From Cephalotus follicularis (lineage: Eukaryota; Streptophyta; Magnoliopsida; Oxalidales; Cephalotaceae), in contig BDDD01000061.1 in the NCBI GenBank assembly GCA_001972305.1, positions 766,510 to 830,509 of the forward strand: a DNA stretch of 64,000 nucleotides, read 5' to 3'. Made by a program: the position numbers and the translations under genes. Positions 4,103 to 61,610 of this stretch are shown here, one piece after another. Under the pieces are notes generated by a model that was given only the letters and a program-made list of their open reading frames with translations, made no database searches and was not told the origin of the DNA. Each line of letters opens with the position of its first letter. The first letter of the stretch is position 1.

Positions 4103-4714
4103 AAGAGACGTCGTAGACCGATCACACCGCCATGGTAGGTGTCATGTCCTCTGTGCCAATGAACATTCCTATGAGACCTCAGAGGAAAGTTTTTTTCTGT
4201 ATGTAATTATGCTAAAATATTGTTTGTTCTAAAACAATTTAAAAACATAATTATATATGTATACTGTCTCAAGACATATATGAAATTATTTAATAAGTAT
4301 CACATCATACTTTCGTACTTGAAAATGACATATCCGAAATCATAATCTTATATGTATCCGAAAATTTAACATACTTCCGAAAGTGGAAGCCATGTCCATT
4401 TAACATATTTTTGATAGTGAAAATCATGCACATATTATAAAATCAGTAATATTAACCTTAGTAATAAAACAGATTTTATTCAAATAAAACTGAATATCCG
4501 GCAACAAAAAATCCATTTCAATAAAATCAGAGATAGCCAAGAAACAAGAAATATCCATACCTTAACCAATCAAAAACTAAACAAATCCAAATTCGAAACA
4601 AAAGCAAAAAAGAAGTACTCTAATCTCTACCATGGATGATATCAATACCCTAATCAAATTAATCCAAGCATTACCACAATGTACAAGACAAAAATATCAA
4701 ACTGCCAGAACAAA

Positions 4715-16685: not shown

Positions 16686-18006
16686 TGAAATAAAACACTC
16701 TTGCAATATACAAGAGGGGGGCTGAATTGAATATTGAAGTAAATATGGAAATTTAAAAAACTTTGAAAGTAAATAGACAAGGAAAGAAAAACTTCTCCGA
16801 TATTTAGAGTGGTTCGGTTAACTCTTGCCTACATCCACTTTTCCCAAGGGAGCTCCTTGAGTTTCCACTAACTCGATTTGATTAAGGCAGCAAATCGTTA
16901 CACCTCACAATTTCGTGATTGACCTCAATCACAAGACTTTGACCTCTAAGCCTTACAGGATTCTCCTCTTTTACAAGTAATATGAAAGTGTTTACAAGAA
17001 CCTCTTAAATAGGTTGATATGAATAAATATAGCTCACAAAATGAAACACTCAGATACACTCAAAGAATTAAGCTTAGAAGCCTTGTTGAACAATGTAGAG
17101 CACTTTGAGCTTTTTGCACACTAGAAAGCTTGAATAGGATTTCTCTTGATGTTGTGTAATTGATGTAGATAATTCTGAATTGTTGTCATTCTTCTGAGGT
17201 TTCATGCTTCCTTTTATAGCCAGAAAAGATTTGTAGCCGTTGCTTAATTTGTGGAAGCTTTTGATTTAAAAATGTGAGTTGCAATTATTGAATTTTTATC
17301 TCTGCTGGTATAAAGACGTCGACTTCTGTACCAAAGGCGTCGATGTCTTTCAGTTGGTAGCCGTTATAAGTGGTTAAACTAGCCGTTCCAGGTTTCCCGG
17401 GTGTTGTTCACTTGAAAAGGCATCGACTTCTTTTGAAAGGCGTCGATGTCTTTTCTGGGAAATCTCCAGGTCTTGAAGCTTTGAGTGTCACGTCGATCTC
17501 TTCCTTGGAGTCGATGCTTTTTCTGGGAATTTGCAGGTTTCTCTGTAAATGGCGTCGATCTCTATTTAAAGGCGTCGATGTCTTTTGCTTTGACGTCGAT
17601 GTCTTTTGTTTAAGGATCGATGTCTTTGATTGCAATTTCATACAGTAGCTTCTGTCTTAGAAAATGACTAAAAGCGTCGATGTTATCTTGGAAGTAGTCG
17701 ATGCCATCTTGAAAGTAGTCGACGTCTTTTGGAAGTAGTCGATGTCTTTTGGTACGGACGTCGATGTCATAACTGGAAGGACGATGTCTTCTTTGTAAGT
17801 AATCCTGCACTAAAGACGTCGATGCTATTTTAAAAGAGTCGACTTCTTTCGTACGGACGTCGATGGTTTTCCTTGATAATCGACTTCTTTTTCTGCAGAT
17901 GGTATATTGCTTTGATTTTGAACTTGTAATTCCTTGCACATCAAGTAAACTTGTTAAATGCAAATATGTTATCATCAAAACAAGGATTGAGACTAAATCG
18001 TCAACA
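16686..18006 (-). mobile_element. 3' LTR of SIRE-type element F
   Basis: About 1321 bp, starting TGTTGACGATTTAG on the minus strand next to the purine tract. The left end is placed at TGAAATAAAACAC by the TG/CA rule, so it is less certain. It contains the densest GTCGAC-motif array of the window. Confidence 0.78.
17310..17890. repeat. GTCGAC-motif array in F LTR
   Basis: About twenty GTCGAC/GTCGAT motif copies in 575 bp, separated by linkers such as TTCTTT and TCTTTTG. Most variants differ by CG to TG or CA. Confidence 0.9.
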
Positions 18007-38743: not shown

Positions 38744-39949
38744 TGTAATGCCCTGAATTTAAATAAAAAAGGAGAAAGAATTTCGGGCCCATAAAGCGCC
38801 CGTATGAAGGAAAAGGGAGAGTGAGGGCTAACGGGAGATGCAGGGAGAGAGAGGGATGGCGCCGGAGAAGGAAGAGTCTTCGGGCATGGCACGAGGCGCA
38901 AGGAAGGGGGAGCTCGTCGGTCGAAGCCTTCACTATCAACGGTAAGCCCTTGCTTTTTCTCCTCCTTTCTCTTTCTTTCTTCTTCTTCTCTACCGTCACT
39001 GCCGCTCACCGTCCATCACCATTATCATCATGGCTGGAGCTGGTCTCTGTCTAGAAGGTCAACTCTGCCCATTGTGATGATAGTTGAGGGTTTTTTTCGT
39101 CAGAATCAGCTGGATTTCAGTTGCTGAGTCGACTAAGCGAGTTCGGCTCACTGTCACGTGTGGCCGACGTTTGGCGCTGAGTCATGGCGAGTCTCGGTCA
39201 CCAATGGGTTGATTGAAGGTTTTTGAGGCCGGTTGTGGCATGACCAGAGCTCCAGCGAGGTGAACCCGCGATGATTATCCGTGAGTCTCGGGTGTAGACC
39301 CCTAGAGCAGAAGGTTTTATGGCATTTTTATGAAGTGGTCAAAGTTGTTGAAGTCTAACGAGTCAACTTAGTGAGTTAGACTCACTACCGACCATGATAG
39401 CGCGTTCTGCGGTGAGTCATGACGAGTCTTCGACAGCATTGTGTAGATCGGCCAATGTGGACCCTGTTGGTGGTGCAGCCTGAACCCGGTGTGCTGGCCG
39501 GAATCTAACCGGAGCTCCGGTGGCGCACAGTATTTGCTACCTTTGTGTAGGTCGTAACGAAAGTGTGATATTCATGCAGTGTACAAGGGCTAGCCCATGA
39601 TAGTTCTTGCAGTGATACTAAGAGAACAGATGGAGCAAGAAGAGCTATGTTCTCGAGATGGCAACAAGTGGAGCTGAAAGAAGAACCAAATTCAGTTCAA
39701 CAGCAAATGGAAATGAACGATAATAGAATATGCAAGTTCAACAATTGAGGTAGGTTATACTATTTGCACTGTATTCATGCATTTTAATGAATTGTGTGAA
39801 CTATACTAAGTGATTGATTGCGAAGACTGTGTTACTGGGAACTGGGTGTATGTTTATAAACTGTGTTACTAGGATTGAAACGGATTTCATGGATTTTGGA
39901 CATGGTTCCACTAATTATGAACTGTTTTCCAAACTACTATTTCTGTCAA

Positions 39950-40160
39950 AATCGTCGACGCTTTATACTTATGCTTTCTAAAACCGTCAACGCTTTATAC
40001 TCATGCTTTCTAAAACCGTCGACGCTTCCATGCTTTTAATGTTAAACTTGTCGATGCTTTGTGTTTTGGTTTTTTAAACAAGTCGACGCTTCCATGCTTT
40101 TAACGTTAAATTAGTCGATGCTTTGTGTTTTGGTTTTTTTAAACAAGTCGACGCTTAGTG
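39950..40160. repeat. GTCGAC-motif array in LTR H
   Basis: Seven copies (CGTCGACGCTT, CGTCAACGCTT, GTCGATGCTTTG). Two ~62-bp direct repeats carry pairs of motifs (from about 40022 and 40084). Confidence 0.9.
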
Positions 40161-42416: not shown

Positions 42417-42628
42417 CTTTTTGAAACGCCCCCTTTTGAAACGGTCGTGGGTGCCGTTTCAAAAAGGCAAGCTTTTGAAACGGCATTTATTTGTCGTTTC
42501 AAAAAGCCATAACTATTTGAAACGGTAGATCATGTGCCATTTCAAATGCTTGCCTTTTTGAAACGGTATTAATCTACCTTTTCAAATAGTTATGGCTTTT
42601 TGAAATGGTAGATTAATTCCGTTTCAAA
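42417..42628. repeat. CACTA subterminal repeat array
   Basis: About eleven TTTGAAACGG or CCGTTTCAAA units in about 210 bp, some with one change, in alternating orientations. In En/Spm such units bind the TnpA-type protein; that role is inferred here. Confidence 0.88.
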
Positions 42629-46837: not shown

Positions 46838-48430
46838 AATGAGGGATGAATTCAGTCATTTTGGCTGAAGAAAGGAAGAGTTTTCTGCTGGGAATAAGTG
46901 GAGAATTCGTCAAGAAAAAGAGATAAAGGAATTCTAAAGCATTGTAAGTAAATTCCATACCCATTTTTATCCAAGTTCCTCTGTTTTACTTCCAAATTAT
47001 GTAGCAGATTGTTTTATTCATATCTTGCTCAATTCTTGATGAATTTTCAAATGGTTTAATGTTTTAGAAACTTTCAGATGTCTACTTTAACTGTTATGTT
47101 TAGTACAACTTGAAATTCTGTCAAATGCTTGATGAAAAGTCTTGTTTCATTTTACTGCTCCTTTACTGCTAAAACAGGGAACCAGCCACTTTAAAAATTC
47201 ATAACAGATTCGATTCCCAACCAATTTTTATGAACTTGAGCTTCCTGAATTCATGAAGATGTCTAATTTAATGTTTCTGTTTTAATTTTCCCTGAAAGTT
47301 CTTATTTCTTAATGAAATTCTAGATTTAGAAATGCTATGCAAAACTGTTTATGAATGCTTTGAGTTATGTACTCAAAATGATGAGAAATGTTTTATGAAA
47401 TGATGAAATGAACCACCCTTGGATTGTGATCCAAATGGAATGAATCCGAGATGGATTATGATGGAGCGTATAGTGATCACGGACATGCATGTGATGTAAG
47501 GATAGTAATCGGTGAGTGCACAATGCCCCGGTGAAGAGGTGTGAAAGGGTTCATTAAGGTTTTTTTGACTTCCATGTTTATGAAATGTTCTAGTTACGAA
47601 TTTTGACTAGAAAAGTGATATGTTTTATGAAATGTTCTAGTTATATGTGTTTACTAGAAAAAGGTTATGATGAAATGTGTTTACAATAAAAACACCTTAC
47701 TGAGCTATTTTGAGCTCATTCCTTTCAATGTTTGTTTTCAAATAAAATGTTTTCAGGAAAGGATTGAATGGAGAATGTGAGCTTTAGAGGAAGCTCATAT
47801 GAAGGAATTTTGAAAGGAAAATGTACTATGCAATAGTGTTTGCATAAAAATGCTTTTGATATGTAATAGGACGATGTTTTTCCGTTGTATTATATGCTTA
47901 TGAAAAAGGATGATCCTGTGTAACTGTATATATGAATAATATTGATTATGATGTCTTTAGATAAGATGAATATGTTGAAGATGGAATTCAAGGTTACGTA
48001 TTATGTTGAGTTTTATGAGCTTTATGATGTATGATAGCACTAGACGAGTATAGTAAAGGATGTAAGAGTTTCACACCCAACGTAGTGCACTGACTCCTCG
48101 AGATTCGCTTTGAGCATCTAGCGGACTCGGATCGGGGACGTTACATGGACGATCAATGACTTTCCGGCATACGGAGACTTGTCTGGATGGAGCACAAAAA
48201 GAAAATTTGCTTGTCCTCCTTGCAACATGAATCCTAACTCTTTATGGTTGTACCATAGTGGTAAGTGGTATTACCCTGGCCATCATCCATTCTTGTCCAG
48301 GAATCATAAGTTTCGAAGAGATAGAGGATCATTTTTTGAACAAAAGGTTGATATGATGCAACAACCACACGTGTTGTCCGATGAAGAATTGTTGCAACAA
48401 TTAAGGGACATTGACATGGAAACGATATAT

Positions 48431-48893
48431 AAGAAGGATGATCCTACCACTTTTCGAGAGGCTGCTACATCCAGAGAATCGAGCAAGTGGATGACTGCCA
48501 TGACAGAAGAGATGGAGTCCCTACAAAAAAACCGCACTTGGGATTTGGTGGAGCTTCCCAAGGATAAGAAAGCTATTGGCTGCAAGTGGGTGTTTTGCAA
48601 GAAGGAAGAGATATCAGAAAAGGAGGGGGGAAGATTCAAAGCTGGCTTGTTGAGAAAGGGTATTCACAGAAAGAGGGGGTTGACTACAATGAAATTTTCT
48701 CTCCAGTTGTGAAGCACACTTCTATTCGGTTCATTTTAGGGATGGTGGCTATGAAGACTATGGAACTTGAACAGCTTGATGTGAAGACTGCATTTCTCCA
48801 AGGCACACTTGAGGAGGACATCGATATGCAGCAACCTGATGGGTTTAAAGAACCCATCAAGGAGTGACTTATGTGTAAGCTGAAGAAGTCGAT
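48431..48893 (+). pseudogene. Copia C reverse transcriptase, left half
   Basis: The phrases DPTTFREAATSRESSKWMTAM, EMESLQKNRTWDLVELPKD, IGCKWVFCKKE and LDVKTAFLQGTLEEDIDMQQ are the N-terminal half of a copia reverse transcriptase. The left edge is fused to the CACTA transposase; the right edge is cut by copia B at the KLKKS/YGLKQ position. The other half is at 60577. Fossil, broken several times. Confidence 0.88.
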
Positions 48894-50653
48894 TGTTAGA
48901 GATGAAGTGCTGCAAGCCAGTGCTGAGCTTGTATTTACTTTATCTTGTATAAACGATTTATAGATTCAATAAAGATGTTTATGTTTTATCAATGGCTATG
49001 AGTTCGTTTCATTAATACATGCTTAATTAATTGTAAATGAATGTCCTAGGAATAAAGTTAGAGAACCAAGTTCATGATGAGATCATGATGTGAGAGTTGG
49101 AATCTCGGTATACTTTATTTCAAATCTTCCTGGTCATAGGATTGACACTCAGGGCATGATAAATCCGGATAAACCAGCACGTACTGTCAGATCGATATGC
49201 AGAGGGTGACTGATCTCATACTCACTCGCATGGATGATGCTATGACAACTACGTGGGTGCTTGTTTAACGAGTTCACTGAAGGTGACTGTTGATAGAATT
49301 TCTGTATGGAGTTTTACTTACATGTCAGACAAATTCTAGTTTTACAGCAGTGCATGTGGTCCTTGGACATGAGCTGTCACTAGATGTCTTGTGCATAGGG
49401 TATTGTGTTTTGATGATGCTTAAATTCATATTCTATGAAGTGTATACAGGCATTAGTTGGACATAGTACGCCTATGTATGGAGGCATGTGAACTGGCCAC
49501 AATGAATCCTTTACTTCTAGTAAATGAAGATTATGCTTAGGATGATTTTCGTTAGCGATTAAATGCATGACCAGCTAGCCACGATATCAAGAGTGTGATA
49601 TCATTGGTTGAATATTAGAGGGGCACCTCTAATATTATTTAGGCTAATGAAAGATAGTCACGAGGTTAAAGATTAAATGATTGGGGTCTAACATAATCCG
49701 TACCCTAGATTTAATTAGAGCATTGTCAATGGAGGGACTATACGTGCATGTACCTGTAAAAAGTAGTTCGCAAATGATTCATATTACAGGGGTCGTTATG
49801 CATTGCTAGATGTCGATGTCGACCAGTAGGATGCCCGAGATTAAATTGATAAAGTAATCTTGAAAGAAAAAGAATTAAAAGAGTTCTAATTCGATATATT
49901 CAAGAGAATATTTTTTATGTCATAATAAATATTTAATTGGATAATTGTGAGTGTCACAATATTAATCCTACGGCCAGCGTAATAGTGAACCCATAGGGTC
50001 ACACACAATACGGGCTAATATTTCCAACACGTGATAAGAGAAAAGTAATTGGGATATTATTTCCTAATTATATTTAATGAGATTAAATATATAAATATAT
50101 TTAATGAGATTAAATATATTAAATAAAGGAAGAGATTTAAAAGGAAAAGGATTACTTTTAAGATAAATGGGTGGTTTAATAGGATATTGTGTTTAAACAT
50201 GATTAGTCTAGCAACTAATATATAAACACATCTCCCTATTCACAATTAAGACTTTTGCCCTATTTAGCAAAACCCTAGCCGCCTCTCTCTTTCTCTCTCT
50301 CATACAATCAAGAGTTGGTAGCTTGTGAAGCTTTTCGTGTTGGAGATTGAAGCTTGGTGTGGATACCTTGGAGGCTTTCTATACTTGGATGCTAGAACCG
50401 TTTAATAGGTTCAACAAGTAGCTGTGCTTTTGGAAGCAATAAGACTCATTGGAAGAAGGAAGGAGCCGCTACATTCATGTCAGTAATTCCGCCTGCTCCT
50501 CCTTATTGTTTTATATCTAACTATATATGTGTGCTCAAAAGATCCTGGAAACAAACCATATGGCCTAATATTCATGAGATGATCACACAATATATATATT
50601 AGGGTTTTATGCATCTAGATATTTTATTGCTAAATCGCCATAAGGTTCCAACA
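48894..50653 (+). mobile_element. 5' LTR of copia B
   Basis: 1760 bp, from TGTTAGAGATG to GGTTCCAACA. An AATAAAG poly(A)-like signal lies near 48969. It contains no array of the GTCGAC motif; in B that array is in the leader. Confidence 0.93.
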
Positions 50654-50656
50654 AAA

Positions 50657-50668
50657 TGGTATCAGAGA
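50657..50668 (+). other. Primer binding site of B
   Basis: TGGTATCAGAGA, three bases after the 5' LTR: initiator-Met tRNA complement. Confidence 0.92.
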
Positions 50669-50784
50669 CGGATTTGCTGCATATATGTAGTTAGAAACAT
50701 GTTTGTTGATGATATGCTTGAATTGTTTGGGTTTAATCCGTGAGACGGAAGCATGGGATGCAAACTGGCGATTCCCTGCAATCG

Positions 50785-51240
50785 AGAAAGCATCAACGCC
50801 TTCGAGAAAAGCGTCGACGTCCACGCGCGATACCACTGCAGAATCGCACGTAGACACGTAAAGCGTCGACGGCTTTGAGAAAAGCATCGACATTTTAGCG
50901 CTAAAGCGCCGACACTTTTGAGAAAAGCGTCGACACTTATGGCGTTAAAACTGCGCCTTTGTTCGACTAAAGCGTCGATGCTTGAGGAAGCGTCGACGCT
51001 TACGTTGTTGAGCGCTAACGTTTTTGACGCTTTTGTAGCAAAGCGCAAAAGAACAGCGCCAAGCATTGACGCCTACGCAGAAAAAGTTTGACGCTTTGAG
51101 AAAACACGTCAACGCTTATGCGTATAACACAGCGCCATAAGTCGACAAAAGAGTCGACGCTTAAGGAAGCGTCAACACAAGCGTTGACGCTTGACCCATG
51201 AACGTCGATGCTTTGTCTTAAAGCGTCGATGCTCTGGCGT
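50785..51240. repeat. GTCGAC-motif array in B leader
   Basis: About eighteen motif copies (AAGCGTCGACGC, GCGTCAACGC, GCATCGACAT), linked by TTTGAGAAAAGCG-like spacers. Located after the primer site, so part of the genomic RNA leader and not of the LTR. Confidence 0.9.
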
Positions 51241-51833
51241 TAAAATACGGAAATGAGTTTTCTTCAATTGCCCAATCAATTGTCTATATTTTTAGAAATA
51301 TATCTATCAAGTTTATTTGTTGATTCAATGAGATTGAATATGCATGATGGTATGGCTATGGAATTGTCCTAGTTTGTCTTATTTTATTCATGTGTTGAAT
51401 GTATGTTTTTATTTTTCATTTTTTTCGGGTTGTAATATTTTAGAGACTTGCATGTCTCTCTTCTCTCTCTTAATTTGTATCTACAATTCTTCTTCGCCTC
51501 CTTGTAACTCCCCTTGATTTATTTCAAGGTTTCTATAGTTTATAGTTGGTTTATGTAATTGAAGAGCGAGCGTCGCAGCGGAAGCAAGTTGGAGGAGAAC
51601 GATGATATTACAGGACTCATGCATGTATGGGAGCGAATGTATGATTGTAAAACATATCTATGAATGAGACCAGCATCTTGTTTGAGAGTCAAACAAGTTG
51701 CAGTAGTAAAAGTCCATAACCTGTCAGTAGTTGTTATTATGTATGTGATACATGTCTAAATTTTGCTCTTAAGGTTCCAACGGCCTCTCCATATTATGTC
51801 ATATACCTGTAATTTGATTAATAAAGGTTTGGC

Positions 51834-51868
<35 letters not shown>
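51834..51868. repeat. (TAA)n microsatellite
   Basis: About eleven TAA units in the B leader. Confidence 0.95.
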
Positions 51869-51962
51869 TTTATATTATTATTCCTCAATTATACCATGAT
51901 ATCAAGTTAAAGCGAAACGGGTACAAGAGAGTGTTTGCTCGTTGCCTTCTGCCATTACAACT

Positions 51963-52392
51963 TATATAGATGCTTTGGAAATTGTAAGTGTTTTGGCCCC
52001 CGTCAAGGCTTGCTTTTTCTAGGGACATCTATATGAGTTGGACATGAGATGTACATACAAATGAATTTTGAAAGTGAATGTTTTGGCCCCCGTCAATATT
52101 CACATTCGTTGATTCATTGTGTGTTGGATGGTAGGTTAAACTTGACTGGAATACATATGACGTTTTTGCCCCCGTCAAGGTCTTGTGTAGACTAGAGGCA
52201 AAAGCGATGATCGGGAATCATGCTATTGTATGGTTGGCAAGAGTTTGCCTAACTACAAGATTCAGTATAGCGTTTTGGCCCCCATCAAGGTTATACTGAA
52301 TATGTTGTTGCACACTGATCCCCGCTCAGAAATTAGATCCATGAGCCTTGGATTGTTATTACTCGTCTCCCATAATATTTGAGGGTTATGGG
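51963..52392 (+). ncRNA. Array of hairpins with a constant loop motif in B leader
   Basis: The motif TTTTGGCCCCCGTCAAGG occurs four times (51991, 52081, 52163, 52273). Each copy is enclosed by inverted repeats of different sequence: ATATAGATG/CATCTATAT (51964-51972 with 52026-52034), GTGAAT/ATTCAC plus AATGAAT/ATTCATT (52074, 52098, 52060, 52112), TACATATGAC/GTCTTGTGTA (52152, 52180, one wobble and one mismatch), and ATTCAGTATA/TATACTGAAT (52260-52269 with 52292-52301). A further hairpin CCCATAA/TTATGGG follows at 52369-52392. It is a structured leader just before gag. The pairing is seen directly; the RNA role (packaging, dimer formation or translation) is inference. Confidence 0.7.
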
Positions 52393-52491
52393 ATTCACGT
52401 AAAACAGTGGGAGCTTGAGAGGAAAAACACCTAAAAGATTAAAGACCAAATCTTTATGGTTATAAACATTTAAATTGAATTTATCTTAATA

Positions 52492-53469
52492 TTGTGTTTA
52501 TTTTATATCTGCAGAAATTGCCCCCTCACTGTAATTCTTGAGAAGAATCAGTTGACAGGTCCAAATTATGTGGACTGGCTTCGAAATGTCAAAATAGTTT
52601 TGAATTCCGACATAGATTATGTCTTAGAGGCCCCTATGCCAGCACTGGCTACTGAAGATGTCACAATCGAAGATCATGCCATTTACAAGAAATGGGTGGC
52701 TAATGAAAACAAAGTCAGAAGCTACTTAATGGCATCGATGAGCAATGCCCTACAAGTCTAGCATGAATCGATGCGAGACTCTAAGGAAATTCTCCTACAT
52801 CTCCGCGAACTATACGGAGAGACTAGTATGAATACTCGGTTCCAGCTCACTGCTGAGCTGTATGGCACTAAAATGGCTAAAGGATCTTTTGTTAATGATC
52901 ATGTGCTTAAGATGATCAATGCGATTGAACGTCTTGCTGCTCTTGGCATCATTCAGGATGGTGAATTAAGCACAGATCTGATCCTTCATTCGCTTCCACC
53001 TTCCTTCTCTAGTTTCATCACCAATTTTAACATGAATAGGATATAAGCTACTCTGCCTGATCTTCTAAACATGTTGAGAGAAGCCGAAGTGAACATGAAT
53101 AAGGGTAAGGCGCCAGTCATGATGGTAGGGCAGTCCTGTAGGCCCAAGAGGAAGGGAAAGTCAAACCTTGAGAAGGGAAAGACTAAAAATGGGACGATAC
53201 CACCACGACCGACATCTTTCATACCAGCAAAAGCCAGACCACATAATCAAACAAACCAGCAAGCTGTCGCTACACCGGACACTGTCACAAGAGTTACACT
53301 TGCTGAGGAGTCTGCCTTAGAAGCTCCTGCTAAGGGACTGTGCTTCCACTGTGGGAAGCCAGGATATTGGAAAAGGAACTGTGGGACATTCCTTAGATCA
53401 ATTGGAAAAGGTATGCCCTATTTGTCTTATATAGAGGTGAATATGAATATTTTTGATTCATCTTCCTAG
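52492..53469 (+). pseudogene. gag of copia B
   Basis: The phrases LTGPNYVDWLRNVKIVLNSD, YGETSMNTRFQLTAELYGTK and LHSLPPSFSSFITNFNMN are the copia gag (UBN2-type) domain. A zinc knuckle, CFHCGKPGYWKRNC, lies at about 53340-53385. A Lys-rich linker lies between. The copy is broken but recognisable end to end. Confidence 0.88.
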
Positions 53470-56400
53470 ATTTTAGACAACAAATGTGGTACTCACATAT
53501 GTTCTAATTTACAGGCCCTCACGGACCGAAGAAACCTTGAGAAGGGTGAGGGAGATCTACGGCTTGCGGATGGTTCCGTCATTGAAGCCATAGCTATAGC
53601 ATCAGTTTATATTTTGTTGCCTTCGGGCCAGAGTTTAGAACTCAAACATTGTGTTTATTCGCCTCACATTTTGTGAAATATTATTTCTATTCCAGCATTA
53701 GATGCTGAAGGTTTTCATATTATTTTTAAAGACAAGTGTTGTTCTATTTTATTTAATAATATGATTTATGAAAAATGTTTCCTTCATGATGGATTATATA
53801 TATTAAGTAAACATGAGACTATTTTCAATATGCAAAAAGACAATAAAAGAAAGAGAGATGAAGTTAATCAATCCTACCTATGGCATTGCAGACTTGGTCA
53901 TATAAGTGAGAAAAGAGTCCACGGGTTGATCTCGGATGGATACTTTGATTTTTCAATGTATCAACCGCTTCCAACTTGTGAACCCTATCTTAAAGGTAAA
54001 ATGACCGAATCTCTCTTCACAGGAAAAGGGGAAAGGACCCCAGAACTACTAGGTTTAGTACGTACTATTGTATGTGGGCCGATGACAGTTGATGCCAGAG
54101 GTGGATAGTCCTACTTTATAACCTTTATGGATGATCATTGTCATTTCAGTTATTTGTACCTTATGTGACACAAATCTGAAGCCTTTGAAAAGTTCAAAGA
54201 ATTCAGACATGAAGTAGAGAAACAGATTGGTAAAAGTCTGAAAACTCTTCGATCAAATCGAGGTGGTGAGTATCTCTCCACCGAGTTTTTAACTTATCTC
54301 AAAGATAATGGGATTATCTCTCAGTAGACCCCTCCAGGAACACCACAGCATAATGGTGTGTCTGAAAGGAGGAATCGCACTTTGCTAGGCATGCTACGTA
54401 GCATGATGAGCAATGTTGGATTTCCACTGTCTTTCTGGGGTTATGCTTTAGAGACTGATGTTCTCTTATTGAACAGGATTCCAACGAAATGTGCTCCCAA
54501 GACCTCATAGGAGATATGGAATGGGAAGAAACCCAATCTTAGTTACCTAAGGATGTGGGGCTGCCCTTCATATGTCAAGCAGGCAGTAGCAGATAAATTG
54601 GAATCTAGGTCCATTAAATGTAAACTTGCGGGATATCCTAAAGAAACACGAGGATATTACTTCTATTATCCACCTGACAACAATGTGTTTGTAGCTAGGC
54701 ATGCTACTTTTATCGAGAAGGACTTCCTGTTGGAAGACAGTAGTGGGAGTATGATAGAATTAGATGAACGATCTAAAGAACCACAAGTAGAGGGCCTATC
54801 CAATCCTGTTCAAATTGATGTTCCTGAAATGTCAGCTATCACAGATACACAACCTCTACGTAGAACTACCCAATTACCTAGGGAACCTGAGAGATACTAT
54901 GGTAGTTTTCTCGTTGAAGGTACCCAATAGGTGTATTTCATGAATGATGATCCGGTAAGATACAAAGAATCCATATGCGATATGGACTCGGAGAAATGGC
55001 TCAAAGCCACGAATTCCAAAATGGAATCCATGTACTCCAATCAAGTTTGGGATCTAGTGGATGCACCCGAAGGGGTTAAATCCTTAGGTTGCAAATGGAT
55101 TTTCAAAAGGAAACTTGGGGATGATGGAAAGGTGAAGACATTCAAAGCTAGGCTCGTAGCCAAAGGTTACAATCAACGGGAAGGGATTGATTATGAGGAA
55201 ACTTTCTTTCATGTAGCCATGCTTAAATCCATTCAGATTTTACTTGCTATAGCTGCACATTTTGACTATGAGATATGGAAAATGGATGTGAAAACTGCTT
55301 TTCTTAATGGAAACATTGATGAAGACATTTATAGGACTCAACCTGAGGGTTTCATATCCACTGGTCAGGACCAGAAAGTGTGCAAGCTTCATAAATCCAT
55401 TTATGGACTAAAGCAAGCTTAGAGAAGTTGGAACATCCGATTCGATGAGACAATCAAAGAGTTTGATTTCATTAAGAATCTAGATGAACCATGTGTGTAT
55501 AAAATGGTTAGTGGGAGCTCCGTGACTTTCCTGGTCTTGTACGTTGATGACATACTCCTTATAGGGAATGATTTGATCATGTTGTCAAACATAAAGGCCT
55601 AGTTATCTACAGTTTTCTCCATGAAAGACTTGGGAGAAGCTTCCTATATCCTCAGAATAAAGGTCTATAGAGATAGATCAAGAAGGATGATAGGGTTGTC
55701 CCAGTCTTTGTACATTGATAGAGTGCTTAAGATGTTTAGCTTGGAAAATTCCAAGAGAGGTTATCTACCTCTATGTCATGGAATTTCACTTTCTAAACAG
55801 ATATCTCCCAAGACAGCTGAAGAAAAACAAAGGATGATGCACATTCCATATGCTTCAGCAATTGGAAGCGTCATGTATGCTATGCTTTGCACTAGACCAG
55901 ATATCGCCTATGCTGTAAGTGTTACAAGAATATATTAGTCAGATCCAGATGAGAGTCACTGGAAGGCTGTCAAAGATATCCTCAAGTACCTTAACAGGAC
56001 TAAGGATTTTTTCTTAATGTATGGAGGAAAAGGTTTGAAGATTAAGGGTTTTACTGACTCTAATTTTCAAACAGAAGTGGATGATTCAAAATCAACATCG
56101 GGGTTTGTGTTCACCTTGAATGGTGGAGCAGTGAGCTGGAAGAGTTCCAAGCAGCCTACCACTGCGGATTCAGTGACTGAAGCTAAATACATTGCGGCAT
56201 CGGAAGTTTCCAAGGAAGGTGTATGGATGAAGAAGTTCATCGAAGATTTGGGTGTAGTTCCTAACATTGAAGATCCAGTATCTTTATACTATGATAACAA
56301 TGGAGCGATAGCGCAATCCAAGGAGCCTAGATCGTACTCAAAGTTTAAGCACATTCTAAGGCACTTTCACCTTATACCTGAGATCTTTGATCGTGGAGAT

Positions 56401-56502
56401 ATAAAAGTGAAACGATTCCAAGTGAAGACAATATTGCAGACCCGCTTACTAAGGCACTATCAAAGGCGGTCTTTGATAGACACCTTGATGCTATGGGTGT
56501 GA
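53470..56502 (+). pseudogene. pol of copia B
   Basis: In order: protease remnant (about 53470-53600), GAG-pre-integrase with LWHCRLGHISEKRVHGLI (about 53870-53950), integrase core (about 54000-54510), integrase C-terminus (54553-54930: MWGCPSYVKQ, YPKETRGYYFYYP), reverse transcriptase (about 54931-55620: LGCKWIFKRKLG, FKARLVAKGYNQREGIDYEE, MDVKTAFLNGNIDEDI, CKLHKSIYGLKQA, VLYVDDILLIGND), and RNase H (about 55940-56470: FTDSNFQTEVDDSKSTSGFV, VSWKSSKQPTTADSVTEAKY, YYDNNGAIAQSKEP). This is the canonical Ty1/copia order. The reading frame has several breaks, so it is a fossil. Confidence 0.92.
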
Positions 56503-56530
56503 GGCACTGTAGCAACTGGCTGTAGCAATT

Positions 56531-56540
56531 AGTGGGAGAT
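56531..56540 (+). other. Polypurine tract of B
   Basis: AGTGGGAGAT immediately before the 3' LTR start TGTTAGAG. Confidence 0.92.
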
Positions 56541-57137
56541 TGTTAGAGATGAACTGCTGCAAGCCAGTGCTAGGCTTGTATTTACTTTATCTTGTATAAA
56601 TGATTTATATATTCAATAAAGATGTTTATATTTTATCAATGGCTATGAGTTCGTTTCATTAACACATGCTTAATTAATTGTAAATGAATGTCCTGGAATA
56701 AAGTTAGAGAACCAAGTTCATTATGAGATCATGATGTGAGAGTTGGAATCTCGATATACTTTATTTCGAATATTCCTGGTCATAGGATTGACACTCAGGG
56801 CATGATCAATCCGGATAGACCAGCAAGTACTGTCAGATCGATAAGTAGAGGGTGATTGATCTCACACTCACTCTCATGGATGATGCCATGACAACTACGT
56901 GGGTGCTCATTTAACGAGTTCACTAAAGGTGACTGTTGATAGAATATCTGTATGGAGTTTTACTTACATGTCAGACAGAATTCTAGTTTTACAGCAGATC
57001 ATGTGGTCCTTGGACAAGAGCCGTCACTCGATGTCTTGTGCAGAGGGTATTGTGTTTTGATGATGCTTAAATACATATACTATGAACTGTATACAGGCAT
57101 TAGTGGGACATAGTACGCTTATGTATGGAGGCATGTG

Positions 57138-59367
57138 TGTTAGATGTAGTGACCCGACAAGCCAGTGGATGGACTGTCGTTTTATATCTATTTTTTGTAT
57201 GAAACAATCTTATTCCTTATATATATGATGTGTACTGATTTGTTATGGCAATATCACTTGTGTTTTATCACTTAATTGAAGTAGTTTATTATTTAACTGC
57301 TTACACTTGTGATGCCCTGACATAAGGTTGGATGCCTAGCATGGAGGCTGTGAGATAGGTTACCTTATTCCTTATGTCAAATTAGTTCCAAGTCATAGGT
57401 TCATTTTGTGGGCAATAGTGAACCGGACAGACTTGCGTGTATGTTGCCTGCTCATGGAATTGGAGGATGGATTCTCTCACTACCATCTGTGTTGCACACT
57501 AGGGAAAATATGGGGTGCGCGCTGGGAGCGTGTACACTGAACAGGACCCGCATAGGGGATACTGTTTGGATAGTCGCTATTCTCATGTCAGAAGTGACTC
57601 CTACTTGTTGCGGTTGTGTATAAGTGATGATCACTTAGAGAGTTCTCAAACTCATCTGATCCTTAGACTTGAGCGACTGCTCTATATTGTTTGGAGATGG
57701 TTATGCTTTGATCTCCACCTTACCCAGTCCTTACGCAGAGTTGGCAATCGGGTGGTCTTTGGGTATGATCGAATCTATACGAATATAAGTTAGTGCGCAA
57801 TATGGGATTGTCACACATGAGCGAAGGTGATCGGCTCTATTATGATCTGATTATACTTTGGACTTCTGAAATCCTTGGCCAAGGTTGAGGTAGACTGGAA
57901 ATTAGATTTCCAGAGAGTTTACCAAAAGTCCTAGTAATGATCAGATATTTTAGCCATTGAGGTATTATCTATGGTTGACACATATCCTTATCCTAGACAT
58001 CAATCGGGGCCAAGCATGACAAGGGATTATAGTACACGTGAACCGACGACTTAGAAAATCTAGGGTTATTGAGGTGTATAATAAATTATATGAAAATTAA
58101 TTAGATTAATTTTTCCATCTGGATAATATTAGATATTATTCCGATAGCATTTAAATTGGTCAAGGACTATTTAGAATGGCTAAACCGAACCCTAGGGTTA
58201 TTTCAGTAATTTATGAACACCTCCGGTTTTAACCAAGATTTTATAGGGTCCCTGCCCAATAATGATTGGATCTTTTATATGTTGGACATATTAAGTCTTG
58301 GTGTCATATATCGGTTATGTGGATTTTGCATTTTATGGAAACACATTTGTTTGATCTTACTTAATCAATATTCGAAGGGTACTTGATATTACTAAAGGAG
58401 TTAGACTCCAATTACCTCACCTGCCAGGAAAAGCGTCGACGCCTTCTGGGAAAGGCGTCGAGCGTTATTTTGTTTTTAGCGTCGACGCCTTTTGGGAAGT
58501 GTCAACGCTTAACACTTGTAAAGACGTCGATGTCTTTTAGAAAGCGTCGACATTTTTAGTGCCATATTACATAAGCGTCGATGTCTTTTGGAAAGCATCG
58601 ATGTGTTTTGAGCGAGACGTGCAGCCTGAGCATGAAGTCACTTCGTGCGCACGTTTTCTCTCTCATCTCCAGTAGCCATCTCCCGTTCTTGCATGTTATG
58701 GGAACGTGGGGATCATGGCCACAGACTCTCTTGGAGTGAGGACCATGATCCTAAGAAAATGGGAGAGTCGGAGAGAGAAGAAAGAGGCAAGTGATAAGTT
58801 TTTCTGCAGAAAAACTTTAAGGGGTGAGATAGGTGTTTTTATGCAAGTATCTCTCTCTGCAGATAGTGAGTTTCCTTCTCTATGATATACACTAAGCAAG
58901 TGCTTATCTAGGGTGGATTGATTTTGACATCTTTGATCAATATCAATTTACTTTTTCTAAGCTTTGTGAGATAGAGAGAGAGTGAAAAGAAACTGTGTGT
59001 TTGTTTCCTTCATTGCTGGACAGTAGCTGTTCTTGCTTAGAGCAGCAGCATAACAACTTGGAGTACAACGGAGGAGGAGTCTTCGCAAGCTTGAAGTGGA
59101 AAAGACGAAGGAGCCTTCACCCATTGGTATATCCCTTTACCTCCTTTGTTTCACCTTGTTTGTATGTCAACATTGAATGTAATGGTGACATCTTTTCAAT
59201 TAAGTGTTGATGTGGTGGTCCATGTGGCCTGTGGTCATGCCATAAAAGGAATGTTTTTGTCGTTGTTGGGTGATCTTCCGCTGCCATGATTGCTTGTTTG
59301 TTTTGTTCTACACCCTACACACCTTTGTCCTTTTACGGCATAGGAATTGGTTAATCCGATTCCAACA
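57138..59367 (+). mobile_element. Solo copia LTR, family A, target duplication ATGTG
   Basis: The 2230-bp unit begins TGTTAGATGT and ends GATTCCAACA. ATGTG is repeated exactly at 57133-57137 and 59368-59372. Removing it in thought restores the B LTR alignment with 49480-49560. It contains a GTCGAC array (58430-58615) and a ~92-codon frame (57515-57793) that is also open in the other two A LTRs. Confidence 0.96.
58430..58615. repeat. GTCGAC-motif array in solo A LTR
   Basis: Eight copies. The first two form a perfect 10-bp stem TCGACGCCTT/AAGGCGTCGA with a 6-base loop (58436-58461). Confidence 0.92.
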
Positions 59368-60576
59368 ATGTGAACTGACAATAATGAATCCATTGCTTCT
59401 AGTAAAAGAAGATTATGCTCAAGATGATTTTCATTAGCGATTAAACGCCTGGCTAGGCTAGCCACGATATCAAGAGTGTGATATCATTGGCTGAATATTA
59501 GAGGAGCACCTCTAATATTATTTAGGCTAATGAAAGATAGTCACGAGGTTAAAGATTAAATTATTGGAGTCTGACATAATCCGTACCCTAGATTTAATTA
59601 GAGCATGGTCAATGGAGGGATTATACGTGCATGTACCTATAAAAAGTGGTTCGTAAATTATTCATATTACCTAGGGGTCGTTATGCATTACTAGATGTCG
59701 ATGTCGACCAGTAGGATGCCCGAGATTAAATTAATAAATTAATCTTGAAAGAAAAAGAATTAAAAGAGTTTTAATTCGATATATTCAAGAGAATATTTTT
59801 TATGTGATAATAAATTTTTAATTGGATAATTATGAGCGTCACAATATTAATCCTACGACCAGCGTTAATAGTGAACTCATAGGGTCACACACAATGCGGG
59901 CTAATATTTCCAACACGTGATGAGAGAAAAATAATTGGGATATTATTTCCTAATTATATTTAATGAGATTAAATATATAAATATATAAATATATTTAATG
60001 AGATTAAATATATATAAATATATTTAATGAGATTAATTATATTAAAGAAAGGAAGATATTTAAAAGGAAAGGGATTCCTTTTAAGATAAATGGCTGGTTT
60101 AATAGGAGATTGTGTTTAAACAGGGTTAGTCTAGCAGCTAATATATAAACACATCTCCCTATTCACAATTAACACTTTTGCTCTATTTAGCAAAACCCTA
60201 GCCGCCTCTCTCTTTCTCTCTCTCATACAATCAAGAGTTGATAGCTTGTGAAGCTTTTCGTTTTGGAGATTAAAGCTTGTTGTGGATACCTTGGAGGCTT
60301 TCTATACTTGGAAGATAGAACCTTTTAATAAGTTCAACAAGTAGTTGTGCTTTTGGAAGCAATAAGACTCATTGGAAGAAGGAAGGAGCCGCTCCATTCA
60401 TGTGAGTAATTTCGCCTACTCCTCGCTATTGTTTTATATCTAACTATATATGTATGCTCAAAAGATCCTGGAAACGAACCATATAGCTTGATATTCATGA
60501 GATGATCACACAATATATATATTAGGGTTTTATGCATCTAGATATTTTATTCCTAAATCGCCATAAGGTTCCAACA

Positions 60577-61029
60577 GCTTTATGGTCTCAAGCAGTCCCC
60601 ACGACAATGGTATAGACGCTTTGACACATTTATGATATCGCATGGGTATAGTCACAGTGAGTATGATTGTTGCATTTATTTTAAATTGTTGAAGGATGGC
60701 TCTTATATTTATCTGACACTGTATGTGGACGACATGTTGATTGCTTCTAGTAGTTCTTCTGAGATTTCCAGGTTGAAAAAGATGTTGAGTAGGGAATTCG
60801 AGATGAAGGACATTGGGGATGCTAGAAAAGTCCTTGGTATGGAAATTTATCAAGATCGTCAGAAAGGGAAGCTATGGGTAACTCAGAGTGGGTATGTGAA
60901 GAAGGTTCTTGACAGATTCAGCATGTCTTAGGCCAAAGCAGTCAGAACGCCATTACCCTTTCGTTTTTGATTGTCGAAGAATGATTGCCCGAAGACTTTA
61001 GAGGAGAGATAGTACATGTCACATGTGCC
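60577..61029 (+). pseudogene. Copia C reverse transcriptase, right half
   Basis: Resumes at LYGLKQSPRQWYRRFDTFM, with YIYLTLYVDDMLIASSS (catalytic motif), FEMKDIGDARKVLGMEIYQD and LWVTQSGYVKKVLDRFSMS, then the first residues toward RNase H. It ends at the A element starting at 61030. With 48431-48893 it is the host gene of the B insertion. Broken. Confidence 0.9.
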
Positions 61030-61610
61030 TGTTGGAAACGGCTTAACCAATACTTATGCAATAAATGGACTAAGGTCTGTAGGGTGTAGAACAAAACTTA
61101 AACATACAAACATGGCAGTGGAAGAACACCCAACAAAAGAAAGACAGTCCATTATGGCATGACCACAAGCCACATGGATCACCACATCAACACTTTAATT
61201 GAAAAGATGTCACAATTGCATTCAATGGTGACATGCTAGCAAAGTAATAAGAGAGAGAGGCAAAGGGATATACAAAAGGGTGTTGGCTCCTCCTTTCTTT
61301 GCCGGTTCAAGCTTGAGAAGACTCCCTCAAATGCTTCCAAAGTCCCTGGTCCAGCAACTGCTCCCAACCAGCAAGAACACAATAAAACCAGGTTATGTTT
61401 TTCACTCTCTCTTCTTCACAATGCTCACAAAGGGTGCATTGGTGTTGACAAGGGTTGTCAATGTCAATCCACCCCAGATAAGCTACAATGCTTGGTGTAT
61501 AATCACATAAACAATGCCAACAGAACAAGAGAACACACTCCTATTTTGCCCAGTAAAAAACCTTTTTTTAAAATGCTCTCCTGGAATGCCTTATACCAGC
61601 CCCATTTCTC

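Follow-up and report, generated by a model that had tools for sequence, protein, structure and literature searches.

We found that the leader of an old, broken Ty1/copia element in Cephalotus follicularis contains an array of four hairpins built to one design. Variation among copies of the element shows that selection acting on the sense RNA upheld the predicted structure during the active time of the family. Comparison with related copia families of the same genome shows that predicted hairpins of this design recur there, with a loop that is family-specific and largely uniform along the array. We put at about even chances the proposal of a sense-strand RNA domain, belonging to a plant copia clade, whose family-specific loop would be read by the element's own Gag for packaging of the genomic RNA.

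The element lies on the plus strand of the window, the whole 64,000-nt stretch of C. follicularis DNA that we analyzed (Table 1). Its LTRs have TG..CA ends, a tRNA-iMet type primer site (TGGTATCAGAG, which we take to fit tRNA-iMet) and a polypurine tract stand at the LTR junctions, and the reverse transcriptase (RT) is of copia type (RVT_2 match, E 2.9e-44), all as expected of a Ty1/copia element. From the position of the primer site the leader is about 1.85 kb long. Self-BLAST aligned the 5' LTR with 56538-57137 at 93.8% identity over 601 and with 59368-60576 at 90.8% over 1209, and a copy whose LTRs are 91-94% identical is old. No target site duplication was seen (TCGAT before the 5' LTR versus GCTTT after the 3' LTR); given the age of the element and the insertion in its 3' LTR, this does not exclude Ty1/copia. 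The CCHC knuckle of gag, found by eye, is CFHCGKPGYWKRNC, and the gag relatives of highest identity (75-90%) are C. follicularis proteins; matches to this type of gag in other plants include Punica, Hevea, Citrus, and Ananas. The last pol piece, RNase H by its position, had no Pfam match. RT pieces of a second copia element lie at 48428-48894 and 60602-61045, and the element studied here appears to sit within that RT and to split it.

Table 1. Features of the copia element and of its hairpin array, in window positions.
Feature	Position	Strand	Basis and remarks
5' LTR (TGTTAG...CCAACA)	48894-50653	+	self-BLAST; ends inspected
Primer binding site TGGTATCAGAG	50657-50667	+	sequence
Hairpin H1	51961-52037	+	motif core 51990-52008; fold; kept in family copies
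Hairpin H2	52053-52124	+	motif core 52080-52098; fold; kept in family copies
Hairpin H3	52152-52189	+	motif core 52162-52180; register common with the other three
Linker CTAGAGGCAAA	52192-52202	+	after H3; sequence
Hairpin H4	52243-52315	+	core stem 52260-52301; motif core 52272-52290; fold
Splice-acceptor-like TATATCTGCAG	52504-52514	+	directly before gag start position
gag, broken	52531-53469	+	in-frame start gone; two in-frame stops
pol pieces, broken	54553-56502	+	SH3_retrovirus and RVT_2 by Pfam
Polypurine tract AGTGGGAG	56531-56538	+	sequence
3' LTR	56541-60576	+	LTR split at about 57138-59367 by another insertion

The leader holds four copies of a 19-nt motif, each enclosed by its own stem. 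Counted from the first T of TTTTGG, the copies start at 51991, 52081, 52163, and 52273 (steps of about 90, 82, and 110 nt), and they differ from TTTTGGCCCCCGTCAAGG at 0, 2, 1, and 1 positions; elsewhere in the window a single place comes within five mismatches, having five. The pattern GCCCCCGTCAA-N60..90-GCCCCCGTCAA occurs at two places in the window and at none in 100 shuffles. The 12-mer GGCCCCCGTCAA at up to two mismatches occurs at four places, a number equaled by 8 of 100 shuffles. The motif count alone is unremarkable, and what is striking is the tandem arrangement together with the stems. Read on the opposite strand, GGCCCCCGTCAA corresponds to a universal stretch of 16S rRNA; since the sister families examined have other motifs, we take this likeness as chance.

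All four hairpins have a single ungapped geometry of variable outer stem, 3x1 internal loop, 5-bp inner stem, and CCCC loop. Read from the loop outward, the window hairpins consist of CCCC, the inner stem TTGGC/GTCAA, the internal loop (GTT versus G or T), and an outer stem specific to each copy. An earlier note on this DNA had described four motif copies, each with its own differing stem, and this was confirmed. It had also taken the motif as one open loop, which does not stand: TTGGC and GTCAA pair, and only CCCC is left as loop. In a gap-free alignment of 42 columns, 62 of 72 pair cells (86.1%) are standard in one fixed register, and sliding the 3' partners by 1-3 columns reduces this to 25-43%. 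Changes on both sides are found at 12 of the 18 pairs across the four hairpins. When only the six outer pairs closest to the motif are counted in each hairpin, 23 of 24 cells are standard, a level reached by 0 of 4000 flank shuffles at any of nine registers; in the unshuffled sequence, shifted registers gave at most 15 of 24. A covariance model built from these hairpins scored its own members at 48.8-53.7 bits and the next match in the window at 16.5 bits (E 0.13). The hairpin structure is well supported. As to position, the array does stand before gag, by about 0.2 kb, as had been noted; it also follows the primer site, but 1.3 kb downstream of it.

The region 51900-52490, whose folding the earlier note had proposed as a check, folded at -189 kcal/mol (z -7.4), an energy that none of 100 shuffles reached. 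When 30-nt flanks were shuffled around a fixed motif, the z scores of H1 to H4 were -7.3, -4.2, -1.7, and -4.5; with 20-nt flanks they were -2.4, -3.0, -1.6, and -4.6. Taken alone, H3 is the weakest (28 of 400 shuffles equally low). The 90-nt slice at 51961 was the most plus-biased among 1066 slices of the window (-35.8 versus -14.5 kcal/mol) and had the third lowest plus-strand z, the values at 42541 and 33961 being lower than that of H1. The folds of GTCGAC repeats in an earlier part of the leader are as good as that of the array, and low folding energy by itself is no proof.

Other structured places were seen in the window. The segment 42541-42630 has a very strong fold on the minus strand (z -14.4, the lowest value in the window) and overlaps a 42-nt tandem repeat. 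Palindrome repeats like AAGCGTCGACGCTT, found in the early leader (50782-51240) and also at 4712, 17416-17790, 39948-40156, 58425-58498, and 63942, fold stably on both strands and look like a separate dispersed motif. Folding of the whole leader region gave a further hairpin (CCCATAA with TTATGGG) downstream of H4, at about 52360-52392, which lacks the motif. An Rfam search of 48000-61000 at E up to 1 gave no match in the array. It returned two miRNA matches, both below threshold and both outside the array, and miRNA precursors were rejected; one of them, to MIR1319 at 58432-58554 (30.9 bits; gathering threshold, 116.6), lies in a GTCGAC-type repeat of the nested insertion.

The exact 18-mer GTTTTGGCCCCCGTCAAG occurs 2,582 times in the C. 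follicularis genome, and its reversed control occurs twice. We assembled 65 arrays with 252 motif copies from the eight best-match loci and the first-listed GTTTTGGCCCCCGTCAAG places, a sample that is not random. At least five of the six outer pairs are kept in 244 of the 252 copies. After exclusion from further counts of six copies with stem identity below 70%, which keep 1 to 4 of the six pairs, the figure is 244 of 246, with all six pairs kept in 207 of 246. Among hairpins at 70-85% stem identity, 108 of 109 keep at least five pairs. H1 to H4 are present in order in 55 of the 65 arrays, three hairpins in eight, and one in two. In three arrays (L078, L092, and L108) one inter-hairpin distance is 4 to 12 bases shorter, and the four hairpins still have five or six of six pairs; in L105, where a distance is 16 shorter, H3 keeps four. 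In-register pairing in the family copies was 80.9% for H1, 92.1% for H2, 80.6% for H3 (n = 62), and 96.0% for H4 (n = 64), against slide-control maxima of 57.6, 42.3, 58.9, and 37.5%, respectively.

The stem mismatches in the window hairpins are eight G-U and no A-C, which indicates the sense RNA. To read the variation among family copies, we took as our premise that elements decay freely after insertion, so that rare variants represent mutation and common variants represent what active lineages tolerated; variants shared by descent were counted once per site. Copies were close enough for ungapped comparison in 36 of 59 cases for H1, 60 of 61 for H2, and all for H3 and H4. Common single stem changes (at least 15%) keep pairing in 18 cases and break it in 5, whereas rare ones (below 5%) keep it in 24 and break it in 82 (Fisher, 8e-7), these and the following p values being rough because the sites are linked. 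The same table for the antisense strand, again as kept/broken, was 8/15 for common and 22/84 for rare changes (p 0.18). Transitions from Watson-Crick pairs gave G-U and A-C in ratios of 21/19 among rare variants, 12/6 at 5-15%, and 12/2 among common ones (p 0.013). The contrast between keeping and breaking was weaker on transitions alone (p 0.009, or 0.054 when only those from Watson-Crick pairs were counted).

Cells changed on both sides within the family were paired in 24 cases and unpaired in 13, the largest being pair 22 of H2, which goes from A-U to G-C in eight copies. The earlier note had proposed covariation across family copies as a test, and this was borne out in part: strict double changes are few within the window's family, where the signal is mostly wobble-preserving change, and the strong covariation lies between the four hairpins and between families. 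Its broader claim of selection on RNA structure is supported for the sense strand by the flank shuffles, the register slides, the contrast of common with rare variants, and the inner-stem covariation described below.

We extended the comparison to related families through a gag query from another Cephalotus family (P0200). We scored 150 of its 14,008 candidates and examined the leaders of 70 of those 150, all from the C. follicularis genome. Many of the first 30 leaders have repeats at about -520, -430, -345, and -235 before gag, with other motifs; a stricter loop-blind repeat test against shuffles was passed in 7 of the 30 only. A structure scan that ignored the loop, so strict that just one of the window's own four hairpins passes it, gave 87 matches in 46 of the 70 leaders and none in 210 shuffled leaders. 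Loops were identical in 37 of 53 match pairs within a leader (50 within one mismatch) and in 593 of 3688 pairs between leaders; the maximum number of same-loop pairs in 5000 permutations was 22.

Hairpins with the family's own loop stood at 161 of 232 places in the 58 leaders that were assigned to a family, compared with 16 of 696 in shuffled leaders, 11 of which were the three-base TCA. By family, the counts were 34 of 52 in A (CCCC), 53 of 68 in B (CACA or CCACA), 8 of 8 in C (TAAA), 11 of 20 in D (CAAA), 16 of 28 in D2 (CAAA), 34 of 48 in E (TCA), and 5 of 8 in F (CCTA); since the motif or loop was used in part to assign families, these counts show agreement along the array and are not an independent classification. 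Loops of other families occupied 18 array places in total, 8 of them TCA in family B (8 of 68 places). The longer loop of family B, CCACA, is that of its H2, and H4 of family D was found at 0 of 5 places by the exact-loop test. Twelve of the 70 leaders have no family assignment; among them, L123, L169, L174, and L177 have loops that are decayed or related.

The inner stem varies around the loop. Compared with TTGGC(CCCC)GTCAA in the window, we found TTGAG(CACA)CTCAA in L131, TTGGC(TAAA)GCCAA in L138, TTGGG(TAAA)CCCAA in L151, and TTACG(TCA)CGTAA in L136. Two different inner stems occur in L118, TTGAC(CAAA)GTCAA and TTGCC(CAAA)GGCAA, and in L126, TTGTG(CCTA)CATAA and TTGCG(CCTA)CGTAA. Thus, inner-stem changes are compensated even among the hairpins of one element while the loop stays constant. 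To measure this covariation, we chose hairpins by loop, TT/AA frame, and outer stem, disregarding the three middle inner pairs. These pairs were standard in 301 of 333 cases and, over 45 distinct combinations, in 114 of 135, against a mean of 79 and a maximum of 97 in 5000 shuffles of the inner pairs. With at most two mismatches, the linker CTAGAGGCAAA recurs in all 32 of the other leaders from families A, B, and C, and further leaders match it in part. Therefore, the platform is homologous and not reinvented, at least in families A, B, and C.

A gag tree provided a check independent of the loop-aided family assignment. It contained the window and 26 of the first 30 loci; L113, L117, L132, and L134, which have no loop, were omitted, and L123 was labeled CAAA. 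The loop labels required 7 changes (the minimum for six labels is 5) compared with 13.2 when shuffled, and 0 of 200 shuffles were as low. Loop type, as predicted from the leaders, follows the gag tree. CCCC, CACA, and TAAA fall within one strongly supported clade, and CCTA with four of the five TCA elements within another. The order inside the clades is poorly resolved: CACA forms one group in only 32% of bootstrap trees, and TCA and CCTA are mixed within their clade. The fifth TCA element, L124, is placed elsewhere on a long branch. CAAA is spread over several deep branches and may be the old loop state.

What could such an array do? Conserved stem-loops under selection and a place in the leader before gag are two marks of a packaging signal, and both are found here. 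A loop that is uniform along the array on freely drifting stems is expected if a protein reads it several times per RNA. The loop differs among families that inhabit a single nucleus, and it tracks gag, which makes Gag of the same family the first candidate as reader. We propose that four hairpins of one design, with a 3-5-nt loop and at set distances before gag, would let a trans-acting factor, evolving together with the family, read each loop repeatedly on a single RNA; the likeliest such factor would be the element's own Gag, through its zinc-knuckle region. The stems would present the loops and the loop would be the tag, by which the genomic RNA of the element would be picked for packaging among many co-resident copia RNAs. 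More tentatively, we suggest that the loop may be a family password: the platform would be kept while the loop is switched array-wide in step with Gag. A given Gag would then pack its own RNA and not serve rival or parasitic families.

The window's leader has 52 ATG triplets before gag, and these together with the acceptor-like site suggest that gag is perhaps made from an RNA other than the one that keeps the array. In that case the array would be a label of genomic RNA, comparable to the psi of retroviruses, which is located behind the major splice donor. A version of this idea, compatible with the packaging explanation, is that the array lies inside a leader intron that ends just before gag and would be kept by unspliced genomic RNA only. 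Many family copies have, by eye, a pyrimidine-rich stretch and a TATATCT(G/A)CAG-like sequence before the gag ATG, and YAG stands shortly before the ATG in 44 of the 70 related leaders versus 15% in shuffles. The sole GTRAGY of the window's leader, GTAAGT at 51984-51989, is within the H1 stem, and by column counts family copies read GTRAGT at this donor-like position. Moreover, according to the available text on the element BARE, its gag RNA is spliced and the RNA that it packages is unspliced (PMC3735527). On the other side, the acceptor is not intact everywhere (exact TGCAG in 15 of 60 copies, TACAG in many others, no AG in some), the H1 donor is preceded by TT and not AG, the leader also has two GTATGT sites, and H1 of the other families showed no donor in common. 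Taken together, these data leave the intron a somewhat doubtful possibility. A start codon spliced in from H1 was dropped, since by eye most family copies have an ATG directly before gag.

Stems kept for a host factor or for a role in translation could look much like these. The chief rival is still control of translation: the hairpins would bring ribosomes to gag past the long leader by shunting or internal entry. The length of the leader, its many ATG triplets, and the end of the array shortly before gag all fit this, and structured leaders with upstream ORFs are used by plant pararetroviruses according to the available text of PMC5902531. It would leave unexplained why loops agree within families and differ between them, and the splice-acceptor-like site offers an alternative way round the leader; we therefore consider it unlikely. 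A host RNA-binding or export factor, for example, a KH protein for CCCC, might instead dock on the loops for nuclear export or stability. Four single-stranded loops, some of them C-rich, are consistent with this, but a single factor would not favor the different loops of the sister families (CCCC, CACA, TAAA, CAAA, TCA, and CCTA), and we regard such a role as quite improbable.

The earlier note had also proposed loop-loop pairing through GGCC, as in a kissing-loop dimer site. GGCC is present in three of the window's four motifs, but it falls largely inside the inner stem and is broken in H3; because the loops CACA, CAAA, TAAA, TCA, and CCTA are not self-complementary, kissing through GGCC is very improbable. 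DNA-level palindromes, whether transcription-factor sites or a by-product of duplication, deserve almost no weight: inverted repeats are present and palindromic motifs are described for some plant copia LTRs (Sirevirus; available text of PMC2829016), but stem variation is G-U on the sense strand and not A-C, the four stems have a register and not a sequence in common, and loop and inner stem are not simply copied, as families C and D2 each combine a single loop with different inner stems. We also rejected pairing between the loop and a distant GGGG of the element, as its best run was 6 and shuffles gave 6 to 10.

Stem-loops in the leader are already known as packaging or dimer signals in retroviruses and Ty1. 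The psi of murine leukemia virus has several stem-loops with a common GACG tetraloop. As in retroviral psi, the array has several leader hairpins before gag with a common loop and variable stems; psi loops are presumably recognized by Gag or by one another. Unlike psi, this candidate signal belongs to a plant copia element, its four hairpins follow one bulged design at 1.3 kb from the primer site, and its loop is family-specific and not self-complementary.

Ty1 of yeast is likewise a copia-type element with a Gag-bound 5' RNA region, a cis-acting region that includes a pseudoknot, kissing loops, and Gag sites that are not precisely defined (PMC4974528). That region lies within a few hundred nucleotides of the 5' end and has a pseudoknot, and the available text of this review describes no array of hairpins with equal loops. 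For BARE, also a plant copia element, dimerization and packaging signals and distinct RNA pools are reported, packaged and translated RNAs being separate and one of them spliced; the available text describes no array of hairpins with a common loop (PMC3735527). Sireviruses resemble our element in having conserved symmetrical repeats in copia noncoding regions, but theirs, in the available text, are palindromes that have a CGG-CCG core and occur in LTRs and upstream of env, while ours are leader RNA hairpins with variable stems and no such core (PMC2829016). Our search of open-licence papers in PMC, as far as their available text goes, found no description of such an array; one paper returned, on enod40 RNA, is unrelated to it (PMC10578108). 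What appears new, against this open-licence literature, is the four-hairpin platform in plant copia elements, with a loop largely uniform within families and different between them.

We also searched other organisms. In viral contigs the motif scan found 0 places and the double-motif scan 1, a GC-rich place with no sign of hairpins; the scan of prokaryote genomes found 29 stretches. The hairpin model gave one match on these 30 loci, at E 0.48 and to the apical part only, and protein-led scans of viral contigs and phage records found no relative. In PLSDB, gag had no match, and the leader had weak, chance-like matches only. Two small "plasmids" from rhizosphere soil that are filed there under Streptomycetaceae names, of Kitasatospora (L031, NZ_CP115454.1) and Streptomyces (L032, NZ_CP115302.1), contain copia pol of plant type, its RT being 72% identical, and are probably plant DNA in bacterial assemblies; the hairpin had no match better than E 0.2 in them.

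Little is known of how plant LTR retrotransposons choose their RNA, and even for Ty1 and Ty3, according to the available text of a review of these elements, neither the sequences needed for packaging nor the sites of Gag have a clear definition (PMC4974528). Here, evolution has made natural swaps, with one platform and six loop types, each with its own Gag. A domain so sharply defined opens the specificity of Gag for RNA in plant retrotransposons to direct tests, and any plant genome can be searched for the pattern. If the password reading is true, it would be a code of self and non-self recognition between selfish elements, written in a loop of 3-5 nt.
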